From Marivita sp. (GTDB lineage: Bacteria; Pseudomonadota; Alphaproteobacteria; Rhodobacterales; Rhodobacteraceae): DNA of 46,910 bases. Under the pieces are notes generated by a model that was given only the letters and a program-made list of their open reading frames with translations, was not told where the DNA came from and did no database searches. The DNA lies in assembly GCF_017643905.1 (NCBI RefSeq), contig NZ_JAEPMO010000012.1, positions 1 to 46,910 of the forward strand, in the 5' to 3' direction. Both the position numbers and the translations under genes were made by a program. Shown in pieces: positions 32,744 to 38,654 of the stretch (its first letter is position 1; each line of letters opens with the position of its first letter).

Positions 32744-32810
32744 CGCGGATGCGTCGACGCATCCGCGGTTTTCCGTCACCGGAAAATCCCCGCCAGCCCG
32801 CAGCGGGGAT
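32744..32810. repeat. Three adjacent hairpins between MaoC and RibF genes
   Basis: A 24-bp perfect palindrome at 32744-32767 (core GATGCGTCGACGCATC), TTTTCCG/CGGAAAA (32769-32786) and ATCCCCGC/GCGGGGAT (32786-32810). They fill most of the gap between the two genes. The first shares 12 of 13 bases with a repeat at 46355-46367. Likely a transcript-end structure and a copy of a dispersed intergenic repeat. Confidence 0.65.
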
Positions 32811-32845
32811 TGCAACCCCCCAGCGCCACCGCTAGTCCTCTGCGC

Positions 32846-33778
32846 ATGAAGATCGTGCGGGATTATCAATTCATTGCCGAGGCCGACAAGGGCGCAACCG
32901 TGGCCATCGGCAATTTCGACGGCGTGCATTCCGGCCATCAGGCCGTGATCCAGCTTGCCCGCGACGCGATGCCCGCAGCGCCTTTGGGCGTCCTCACGTT
33001 CGAGCCGCATCCGCGCGAATACTTCGCCCCGGATGCCCCCCCCTTCCGGCTGATGAACGCCACCGCGCGCGCGACGCGCCTGCGCAAGCTGGGGGTCGAG
33101 ATTCTCTATGAACTCAACTTCAACAGCCAGTTGGCCGCCCTGACGCCCGAAGGTTTCGCTGCGAACGTGATTTCCGACGGCCTCGGACTGCGTCATGTCG
33201 TGGTCGGGGCGGATTTCTGTTTCGGCAAGGGCCGCAAAGGCACTGTCGATGATCTGCGCCGGTTTGGTGCCCAGATGGGTTTCGGCGTCACGGTGGCAGA
33301 GCTTGTCACCGCCGAGGCCGGTGCCGTGTCCTCGACCGCCATCCGCACGGCCCTGTCTGACGGCAATCCGCGTCTGGCCGCCGACATGCTGGGCCATTGG
33401 CACCGTATCGAAGGCGAAGTGATCGGCGGCGAACAACGCGGGCGCGAACTGGGCTATCCCACCGCCAATATGTCCATCGACGGGCTGCACCCACCAAGGT
33501 TCGGGGTCTATGCCGTCTTGGTCGATGTGCTCGACGGGCCGCATGCCGGATCCTACCATGGCGCCGCGTCCATCGGTGTGCGTCCGATGTTCGGCGAGAA
33601 CCGCGCAAACCTTGAGACCTTCATTTTCGACTTCACCGGCGATCTTTACGGCGCAACGGTCTCGGTCGCTTTGATAGATTTCCTGCGACCCGAATTGAAG
33701 TTCGACAGCCTTGAGGCGCTCATCACGCAGATGGATGCCGACTGCGCCCAGGCGCGCGCGATCCTGACCGCGCTATGA
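32846..33778 (+). CDS. ribF: Bifunctional riboflavin kinase/FAD synthetase
   Basis: 310 residues. N-terminal FMN adenylyltransferase: ATVAIGNFDGVHSGHQAVI (nucleotidyltransferase motif), FEPHPREYF, VVGADFCFGKGRKG and VSSTAIRTALSDG. C-terminal riboflavin kinase (from about 185): GEVIGGEQRGRELGYPTANM and GVYAVLVDV, GAASIGVRPMFGEN, FIFDFTGDLYG. It converts riboflavin to FMN and then FAD. ATG 32846 matches the normal family start; 12 codons upstream lie in hairpin sequence. It overlaps the YcgN gene by four bases. Confidence 0.96.
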   Translation: MKIVRDYQFIAEADKGATVAIGNFDGVHSGHQAVIQLARDAMPAAPLGVLTFEPHPREYFAPDAPPFRLMNATARATRLRKLGVEILYELNFNSQLAALTPEGFAANVISDGLGLRHVVVGADFCFGKGRKGTVDDLRRFGAQMGFGVTVAELVTAEAGAVSSTAIRTALSDGNPRLAADMLGHWHRIEGEVIGGEQRGRELGYPTANMSIDGLHPPRFGVYAVLVDVLDGPHAGSYHGAASIGVRPMFGENRANLETFIFDFTGDLYGATVSVALIDFLRPELKFDSLEALITQMDADCAQARAILTAL

Positions 33779-36593: not shown

Positions 36594-37808
36594 CTAAGGG
36601 ACGGGATAGGCCCTCTCCAGAACCTGCATGGCCCGCGCCAGAACTTCGCTGTCGGAAAGACTGGCGAGGTCGCGCGCGGCTCCGGCACCGTTGAACCCAA
36701 GCAGCAGCGGCGCGTCCAGCAGCGGCGCGAGATTGAGCCATTGATTGAATTGCCCCGGTGGCAATCCGGTCTCGGGCGTCAGGATCCAGGTTGCATCCGC
36801 ATCCCAGAACACGTCATCGAACCGTAGATAAAGCTTGTCCAAAAGGCCAAAGCCAAGGCGGCGGATCGCGATCTGCTTGTCTTCGGGCAATGCGGGGGAA
36901 AAGGCGATGCGCTCTGCCTTGAGCACCCCCAGCGGAACGGTGATAATCACTGCATCGAACTGGCCCAGATCATCTTGGGCGGAGGCCAGATGCACGCCAT
37001 CATCCCTGAGTGTGACCTGCCGCACCTCGGTGCCAAGCCGGATGTCGAGCGACTGCTCAGGCATACCGAGGATCTGCGCATAGCCGTCCGGGAAGAGCAG
37101 GTCTTCGCCACCATAGTCGGGATCGTCCGCGTAGGCGTCCCAGTTGATGTCAGTCGTACTGGCGCCGTAGTCCTGCTGGATCGTCACCACGTCCTCGAAC
37201 CAGTCCGGCATGTCGCGGTCGCGCAACCGACGACCCGCCGCGCCGCGCAGGACATAATCGTCATAGGTGACGACGCTGCGCATGCCACGCTCTGCCGCCA
37301 GTGCAACGAGCGGGTTGCCGTCGTCGCCATGCAGCCAGCTTGCCCCCAGATCGAGAGGCAGACCCAGGCTGGGGTCGGTCCAGATACGCCCGCCAACGCG
37401 GTCGCGGGCCTCGAACAGGATCACGCGGACGCCCTTGGCGGTGAGGCGGCGCGCGGCGGTCAGGCCACTGATCCCGGCTCCGATGATGGCGACTGTTTCG
37501 GCACCTGTGTCGGCGACGCTCTCTGCCACGTCGAGACCGGTTTCATAGGCGGCGTGAACCGTGCTGTTGTAGCCGGGATGTGTGGCCTCTCCGGCGAAGA
37601 AAAGATGGGGTCCGACAGGGCGGGACAGCGCGGTCACATCGGCGCGGGATGCGGTCTGCGCGATGTAGGAATAGGACCCGAGGCTGAAGGGATCGCGGCT
37701 CCAGTTGGTGCGCAGGTAGCCGGTGAGGGATCGCGCGCCTTGCGCCGCTGAAACGCGGGGCATCAGAAGGCTGGTTGCAGCAAGGGCAAGGATCTGTCGG
37801 CGACGCAT
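36594..37808 (-). CDS. Circularly permuted flavin amine oxidase, exported
   Basis: 404 residues of the MAO/polyamine oxidase/LSD1 class, but in permuted order. Residues 1-23 form a twin-arginine-type signal (MRRRQILALAAT...SAAQG). Residues 29-97 are what normally ends the enzyme: TNWSRDPFSLGSYSY (34-48), HLFFAGEAT (68-76) and STVHAAYETG (82-91). A short linker follows. Residues 105-404 are the normal beginning and middle: FAD motif AIIGAGISGL (107-116), EARDRVGGRIW (133-143), LDLGASWLHG (152-161), VPLGVLK (291-297) and GFGLLDKLYLRF with Lys325 at the usual catalytic lysine position. The protein stops at ERAYPVP, exactly where the missing C-terminal part would follow. All elements are present once, so the fold could close normally. 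Confidence 0.9.
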   Translation of the reverse strand: MRRRQILALAATSLLMPRVSAAQGARSLTGYLRTNWSRDPFSLGSYSYIAQTASRADVTALSRPVGPHLFFAGEATHPGYNSTVHAAYETGLDVAESVADTGAETVAIIGAGISGLTAARRLTAKGVRVILFEARDRVGGRIWTDPSLGLPLDLGASWLHGDDGNPLVALAAERGMRSVVTYDDYVLRGAAGRRLRDRDMPDWFEDVVTIQQDYGASTTDINWDAYADDPDYGGEDLLFPDGYAQILGMPEQSLDIRLGTEVRQVTLRDDGVHLASAQDDLGQFDAVIITVPLGVLKAERIAFSPALPEDKQIAIRRLGFGLLDKLYLRFDDVFWDADATWILTPETGLPPGQFNQWLNLAPLLDAPLLLGFNGAGAARDLASLSDSEVLARAMQVLERAYPVP

Positions 37809-37832: not shown

Positions 37833-37873
37833 CGTTTGCGTCAACGCAAACGTGCGATGCGTCGCCGCATCGC
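37833..37873. repeat. Two hairpins in the divergent promoter region
   Basis: CGTTTGCGT-CA-ACGCAAACG (37833-37852) and GCGATGCG-TCGC-CGCATCGC (37854-37873), both perfect. The first 16 bases recur inverted at 46356-46371, and GCGATGCGT recurs at 46352-46360, marking a dispersed intergenic element. Their presence also argues against starting the amine oxidase gene upstream of 37808. Confidence 0.65.
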
Positions 37874-37985
37874 GCGCGGTGCAGGGCCCACTTTGTCCCG
37901 AGGGCTGCACGCAAGCGACCCATTCCAGCCATTTTGCATCGGTACAGTCTGGGCCAAACGCACTGTGCTCAGGAGCGCCTCAACG

Positions 37986-38654
37986 ATGTTCGATGATGGC
38001 ACCAAGATCGGGGTTTTTGCCATTGTGATGGCAGCGTGGGTCTTTGGCTTGAGCGCAGACAAACTTGAGCCGCCTGCCGATCTGGCGACCGCCGTCGATC
38101 ACTCCCAGCTTCCGCCTCTGCCGCTGAAAGCGGCACCGGACGGGTCTCCGGCACAGGCTCGTGTCCCGGGGATACAGGTCGCGCTTAGCCATGGGTTTGG
38201 GGCCAAGTTGCTGGCCAGCTATGTGCTCGAGGGGCGTGTCGTGACCCGTCGTGAATATCGCAATGATCTGACCAGCCCGATCTCTCCGCTTGATCTTGGC
38301 ATCGTGTGGGGTGATCTCGCCCCGTCCGATGCCACCAATGGCTTCGAGTTCCGAACCATGCATCGCGCGATTTGGTTCAATCCACCCAAAGGCGTCGACT
38401 TGCCACGGCAGTGGGACGATCAGATCACCAACAACCATCTCATCCCGGCGACACCGGCAGTGAATGATGTTTTGATGGCGATTGGCATCGGGTCACATGT
38501 CAGGATCCGCGGGTATCTTGTGTCCGTCACGGGAGACCAGATCAGACCATGGCGTTCCTCGACACGCCGTGACGATGGTTCGCTCGTCGGAGGTTGCGAA
38601 ATCATCCTCGTGACCTCGGTCGAGGTTTTGACCAAGTATGAAACAACGACCTAG
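37986..38654 (+). CDS. Uncharacterised exported or membrane-anchored protein
   Basis: 222 residues. One N-terminal hydrophobic segment (IGVFAIVMAAWVFGLSA) acts as signal or anchor; the rest is soluble and probably periplasmic. Segments ISPLDLGIVWGDLAPSD, NNHLIPATPAVNDVL, HVRIRGYLVSVTG and WRSSTRRDDG followed by CEIILVTSVEVL resemble an unnamed family I recall in various proteobacteria, with no known role. ATG 37986 is chosen as the start of the hydrophobic segment. The 50 codons upstream cross hairpin repeats. Divergent from the amine oxidase gene. Confidence 0.75.
   Translation: MFDDGTKIGVFAIVMAAWVFGLSADKLEPPADLATAVDHSQLPPLPLKAAPDGSPAQARVPGIQVALSHGFGAKLLASYVLEGRVVTRREYRNDLTSPISPLDLGIVWGDLAPSDATNGFEFRTMHRAIWFNPPKGVDLPRQWDDQITNNHLIPATPAVNDVLMAIGIGSHVRIRGYLVSVTGDQIRPWRSSTRRDDGSLVGGCEIILVTSVEVLTKYETTT

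Follow-up and report, generated by a model that had tools for sequence, protein, structure and literature searches.

Rearranged Gene and Its Surroundings

We analyzed a stretch of 46,910 nucleotides from Marivita sp. (assembly GCF_017643905.1, contig NZ_JAEPMO010000012.1), here called the window, and found on its minus strand a single gene for a flavin amine oxidase whose parts follow one another in an unusual order (Table 1). Flavin amine oxidases, including MAO, the polyamine oxidases and LSD1, have one common chain order, and the family is marked by a dinucleotide-binding GxGxxG with its Glu, by GGR and by FAGE.

Table 1. Parts and key residues of the permuted gene, and two neighboring frames, with positions in the window
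Feature	Position	Strand	Remarks
Circularly permuted flavin amine oxidase, whole CDS	36594..37808	-	404 aa; start ATG at 37808, final codon 36597-36599, stop TAG 36594-36596; no frame break
Twin-arginine-like signal peptide, residues 1-22	37743..37808	-	MRRRQILALAATSLLMPRVSAAQG; RR at residues 3-4
Old C-terminal module ("ending"), residues 28-100	37509..37727	-	TNWSRDPFSLGSYSY ... LFFAGEATHPGYNSTVHAA; helix 84-100 at its end; residues 30-96 correspond to PF01593 374-440
Tyr46 in GSYSY	37671..37673	-	Tyr in 39/39 permuted and 38/39 canonical rows
Thr83 in NSTVHAA	37560..37562	-	Thr or Ser in 78/78 rows
New junction, residues 101-104	37497..37508	-	Bridges helix 84-100, formerly the last, and strand 105-109, formerly the first
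Old beginning and middle, residues 105-404	36597..37496	-	GxGxxG (110-115), GGR (139-141), substrate domain, catalytic-Lys segment
Stretch that is longer and helical in canonical relatives, residues 196-215	37164..37223	-	One helix (203-214) in the model
Lys325	36834..36836	-	Aligns with the LSD1 lysine segment; Lys in 39/39 permuted and 39/39 canonical rows
Bifunctional riboflavin kinase/FAD synthetase	32810..33778	+	Pfam FAD_syn and Flavokinase; about 3 kb from the flavoenzyme gene
Divergent neighboring frame	37839..38654	+	No Pfam match at E 1e-4

Against the whole protein, the Pfam profile Amino_oxidase (PF01593) scored 234.8 bits (cut-off 19.8) in three stretches. Residues 1-97 alone gave E 1e-14 at profile positions 374-440; residues 98-404 alone gave E 6.1e-55, their best stretch covering positions 176-366. 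As the end of the profile is matched at the start of the protein, the ending is placed first in the chain; the seven profile positions separating 366 from 374 fall at the loop that holds the new termini. In the order of the profile GxGxxG comes first and the FAGE module last, whereas here the FAGE module comes first, and the gene is therefore classed as a permuted variant of the PF01593 family and not as an ordinary member. The old termini are joined by a turn of four residues and the new ends lie in the canonical loop YGxxIPxPxxxxITRW, the chain stopping at residue 404, the point where the canonical loop toward the C-terminal module would start. An earlier note on this DNA had described the ending-first order in a single uninterrupted frame; the separate Pfam matches in swapped order agree with this and the frame it gave stands, the minus strand being added here as a correction, since the note left the strand unstated. 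In NCBIfam, 47 families were matched at E 0.001, and among the best 25 of the 47 every score was under the cut-off of the family.

The protein begins with an RR motif and a hydrophobic stretch, and TatC is found in the genome; from these features, the protein would be exported by Tat and its leader cleaved near the boundary between VSA and AQG.

Among the 25 largest clusters of neighboring genes, none names a substrate or is shared widely enough to do so. Leaving aside the gene itself and frames overlapping it, these clusters are common to the loci of the Marivita group and are partly found at L057 and L039. What seems by sequence to be the same riboflavin kinase/FAD synthetase gene lies nearby in L014-L018 and L057, and a frame similar to the divergent neighbor seems to occupy the corresponding position in the Marivita loci. 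Near the permuted gene of L022, L023, L026, L028, L041 and L049 lies a gene for an ABC-F-type ATPase, a name given from the sequence and not from a profile, and these loci may mark a shared integration spot.

Recurrence of the Order in Other Genomes

To look for relatives, we scanned one genome per species with six exact peptide patterns and obtained 491 stretches, 438 of which encode a relative. The query was split into the ending and the beginning-plus-middle part, and the succession of the two was read at each locus. The order counts rest on the best 80 of the 438 relatives and are lower bounds, as exact patterns miss diverged genes: 41 of the 80 loci have the permuted order (L014-L053 and L057) and 39 the canonical order (L054-L056 and L058-L093). 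In 37 of the 41 permuted loci the gene is a complete single frame. One locus (L044) is truncated at a contig end, and at three the frame is interrupted (L050, 5010-6169; L057, 5088-6211; L029, 5097-6218); the latter may be decaying copies or assembly errors, and the gene may be dispensable or badly assembled there. Going by the record titles, complete permuted genes are found in cultured isolates of Marivita cryptomonadis, Marivita lacus, Pseudooctadecabacter jejudonensis, Thalassovita mediterranea, Falsiruegeria mediterranea, Halocynthiibacter namhaensis and Nioella species. Chance is excluded by the E-values of the modules together with the 37 further complete genes that have the same order among the 80 loci.

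The alignment of permuted proteins, A1, consists of 39 rows: the window, the 37 complete loci and L013. The proteins are 40-77% identical to that of the window, PF01593 matches all 39 at E 0.001 or better, and the RR of the leader is kept in every one, with starts chosen by a script that gave a bonus for RR. In 15 pairs among six genes of the genus group, dN/dS was 0.14-0.25 overall; by module it was 0.09-0.34 (ending) and 0.13-0.22 (beginning plus middle), and the leader and junction were looser. The values are rough, with synonymous sites near saturation (median pS 0.58). Judged by these ratios, both modules appear to be under purifying selection.

Outside cellular genomes, the 19 plasmid records found all fall short of 80% coverage of the query, and of 21 stretches of viral contigs that matched a pattern none encodes a relative. 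One plasmid match (H17, Pseudomonas aeruginosa NZ_CP140112.1) looked like a second case, as its tblastn alignment took in query residues 41-180 and so crossed the junction. It was rejected: the annotated frame of 167 aa starts as an ordinary amine oxidase, the sequence upstream has no FAGE module and the alignment there is due to chance.

Distribution

In 394 Rhodobacteraceae genomes, drawn evenly from a larger group, 15 (own genome included) match approximately the whole A1 profile at 381-656 bits; among these, the match of L105 stops at profile position 351. The next 17 genomes, from 160 bits, cover only positions ~205 to 405, as canonical enzymes would. At the class level the gene is found in 3 of 385 genomes and at the phylum level in 3 of 398 (E 1e-60 in both, own genome included), all three of the latter in the family of the window; the family, class and phylum scans scored no more than four first-look candidates in each genome. 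The family of genome G555 has it in 4 of 17 genomes (E 1e-60), and 6 of 17 genomes of the window's genus carry it. Within the window's own genome, the next match after the permuted gene reaches only E 5.7e-9. The distribution of the permuted gene is patchy.

The gene also appears in bins named Opitutaceae, Actinomycetota and Anaerolineae, the taxonomy being that of the bin name. The Anaerolineae case (L053, 3552 bases) is joined to the alphaproteobacterial L051 by branches of 0.035 and 0.087, and given this closeness it is probably mis-binned. One genome of the Rhodobacteraceae, G310, contains a complete permuted gene as well as a partial match resembling the canonical form, the two being on different contigs (C15 and C1), and offers a natural pair for comparison.

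Conservation of the Flavin Site

The motif set of the family (GxGxxG, Glu133, GGR and FAGE) is present in the permuted proteins. Gly110, Gly112, Gly115, Glu133, Gly140, Arg141, Trp158, Asn165, Lys325, Trp335 and Trp357 are invariant in all 39, as are Trp36, Asp39, Pro40, Gly44, Tyr46, Gly73, Glu74, Val84 and His85; in the FAGE motif, AGE is invariant and F is found in at least 90% of the rows. By its place in the alignment, Lys325 is taken as the conserved flavin-N5 lysine. It presumably occupies the position of Lys300 in maize polyamine oxidase, and we take Tyr46 and Thr83, mapped by motif, to be at the positions of Phe403 and Tyr439; the Lys300 and the aromatic Phe403 positions would accordingly be kept in the permuted enzyme. 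In the maize enzyme, Lys300 reaches the flavin N5 via a water molecule and Phe403 and Tyr439 flank the tunnel (PMC7576179). The Tyr439 position holds Thr (35 rows) or Ser (4 rows) in the permuted enzyme, as it mostly does across most other polyamine oxidase clades (PMC7576179).

Relation to Known Enzymes

The canonical bacterial flavin amine oxidases, for example L054 from Anaerolineae, L058 from Marinomonas and L082 from Methylococcaceae, are 31-39% identical in the beginning plus middle and 41-57% in the ending. They share the FAD motifs, the catalytic Lys and the cage Tyr and Thr with the permuted proteins, and many have a Tat-like leader, but they differ in their beginning-middle-ending order, in a longer beginning-plus-middle part and in having three long helices in place of the single one of the permuted model.

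Among the PDB matches listed, the amine oxidase domains of LSD1 and LSD2 (KDM1A and KDM1B) were the top relatives both by sequence (LSD1 with E 8.7e-44 for the protein query, LSD2 with E 4.2e-75 for the family profile) and by fold. They differ in having the canonical order, and between query residues 177 and 196 LSD1 has a long additional segment, which we take to hold the Tower. LSD1 and LSD2 contain other domains as well, and a bacterial enzyme would not be expected to act on histones. Maize polyamine oxidase (1b37) and the spermine oxidases belong to the same family, and 1b37 shares the fold; they too differ by the canonical order. Among the best 60 of 98 PDB matches to the protein query and the best 60 of 100 to the profile, no best stretch spans the junction over the whole permuted order; for 7e7h, matched by the protein query, the best stretch begins at query residue 84, just before the junction. 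A literature search at the level of titles and abstract openings found no permuted flavin amine oxidase among the entries listed. As far as seen, a conserved natural circular permutation of this well-known kind of enzyme is new.

Predicted Structures and the Shortened Part

We predicted the structure of the permuted protein using AlphaFold2 with A1 and, as a canonical control, that of L082, using an alignment with 29 of the 38 remaining canonical proteins. Both models were confident (pLDDT 89.3 and pTM 0.87 for the permuted protein; 92.9 and 0.88 for the control). In the permuted model the leader, residues 1-23, is the sole segment below 50 pLDDT, and residues 91-110, which span the junction, average 97-98. 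After the leader come strands 28-33 and 46-48, helix 55-62, strand 69-71 and helix 84-100, and then strand 105-109, helix 113-124, strand 128-133 and further elements up to helix 386-400. The control starts with strand 35-42, helix 46-57 and strand 62-66, continues to helix 364-379, and closes with strands 388-391 and 404-406, helix 414-420, strand 427-429 and helix 442-459, ending at residue 460. Read from this succession of secondary structures in the two models, the one order appears as a rotation of the other. Since the first strand of the control lies near the leader and its chain closes on the last helix, a short link suffices for joining the termini.

In Foldseek searches, the control model had TMq values of 0.81-0.88 among the best 50 matches listed, with LSD1 and LSD2 first, and the permuted model found the same relatives with 0.60-0.67 among the best 50 listed. 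The lower values are expected because an aligner that follows sequence order can use only one of the two swapped blocks. The earlier note had proposed a foldable natural circular permutation with a leader, to be checked by structure prediction and to be given up if homologues were absent and the structure did not close. The prediction gave a confident fold and homologues exist; with the swapped Pfam matches and the retained catalytic residues, they uphold the proposal. The note would also have yielded to evidence of a misassembly joining two parts of a normal gene; neither of these refutations was borne out.

On one point the outcome was different. The note held that no part is missing, but the beginning-plus-middle part has 297-302 residues (median 300) in the 39 permuted rows and 336-363 (median 346) in the 39 canonical rows, a difference in medians of ~46 residues with BLAST matches used to place the part ends. 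Where the control model has three helices (131-154, 161-172 and 176-194), the permuted model has a single one (203-214). The shortened stretch falls in the presumed substrate domain, at the site of the long additional segment that LSD1 has relative to the query.

Origin of the Permuted Order

For the phylogenetic analysis, the two modules were aligned apart and put in one order, and only columns filled in most rows of both groups were retained; the tree was built from 368 columns and 78 rows (39 permuted and 39 canonical), with no outgroup. A branch with support of 100/100 separates the permuted from the canonical rows, and a single change of the order label suffices in 100% of 200 bootstrap trees. 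Judging by the canonical order seen in the Pfam profile and the aligned PDB relatives, the permuted order would be the derived one. A deep permuted subgroup (L049, L051, L052 and L053; support 95/93) retains (I/V)PDP....ITRW ahead of the ending. This corresponds to the canonical-consensus loop YGxxIPxPxxxxITRW and so suggests the site of the opening, namely that the chain opened directly after the helix that ends in Y(P/G).

Under a similar RR-favoring rule, 23 of the 39 canonical relatives also have RR and a hydrophobic leader, so the Tat-like leader is probably older than the permutation. In the ancestor, the order would have been leader, beginning, middle and ending, and the ending, comprising the last strand and helix of the FAD domain, would have come to follow the leader and precede the beginning. 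The old termini would have become linked by a turn of about four residues, and the loop before the ITRW/RTNW strand would have opened to give the new ones.

Tandem duplication is the usual textbook route to permuted genes, and a doubled gene trimmed at both ends can yield the ending-beginning order by cutting. This route is compatible with a circular permutation, and the earlier note had invoked it as duplication followed by loss; we consider it possible but somewhat doubtful. A search of the 42 permuted loci and the window at E 1e-3 turned up neither module a second time, whether whole or as a remnant, and none of the 80 loci showed a single gene with a doubled module or both orders (at most three matches each for the canonical loci). 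Moreover, plain tandem duplication and end trimming is insufficient because the leader stayed at the front: as 23 of the 39 canonical relatives carry a Tat-like leader, the second copy would have had one too, and precisely this piece would have had to disappear at the junction. Either that leader was lost, or another kind of recombination relocated the ending.

Discussion

The product of the gene is very probably an exported FAD amine oxidase that belongs to the polyamine oxidase/LSD1-like branch and has a naturally circularly permuted chain. The chain order, its conservation, purifying selection, the one supported group, the shortened helical stretch and the predicted fold were computed; for FAD binding, export, substrate, products and genetic route, we infer the course described above and the following one. 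The fold would close in the canonical manner: the aromatic Tyr and one side of the FAD site would come from the ending, the dinucleotide-binding strand and helix from the beginning, and the substrate domain and catalytic Lys from the middle. FAD would be loaded in the cytoplasm and the folded enzyme then exported by Tat, and in the periplasm small amines would be oxidized to an aldehyde, ammonia or an amine, and H2O2 (or electrons passed to a carrier).

We judge amine oxidation to be the likeliest activity, and with good confidence. The protein could instead have an FAD-binding fold without this activity, its shortened substrate domain serving a flavin-dependent dehydrogenase, a carrier or a sensor with another substrate. 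Such a role would fit the fact that every permuted row (39/39) is shorter in the beginning plus middle than any canonical row, and also the patchy distribution (15 of 394 Rhodobacteraceae genomes), but we consider it unlikely given that all 39 proteins have the catalytic Lys and the presumed cage Tyr, with Thr or Ser on the opposite side in all 39, much like the canonical relatives. The chance that a misassembly or frameshift fused two pieces of an ordinary gene is practically negligible: the assembly is a draft in which the window is contig C202 of 274, but the order is repeated at 41 of 80 loci from separately sequenced isolates and bins, many homologues thus sharing it, the window protein is 40-77% identical to the others and both modules appear to be under purifying selection.

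A further view, which we regard as speculative and rather improbable, is that the permutation was an adaptation to export and, together with the shortened substrate domain, defines a separate family that has its own substrate and spread between bacteria by gene transfer. Most motifs of the FAD site (residues 36-141) would then lie in the first third of the chain and not at its two ends, and the flavin pocket could close and be loaded during translation, ahead of Tat export.

For the permuted amine oxidase, naming from a single Pfam match would conceal the rearrangement. The enzyme represents a shorter scaffold with new termini for biocatalysis, and the permuted and canonical enzymes, with a similar leader and the same active-site residues, form a natural pair in which chain order can be set against cofactor loading, folding order and Tat export. 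The conserved permutation indicates that the two-domain FAD fold tolerates a cut between the catalytic and C-terminal modules as well as the joining of its termini.
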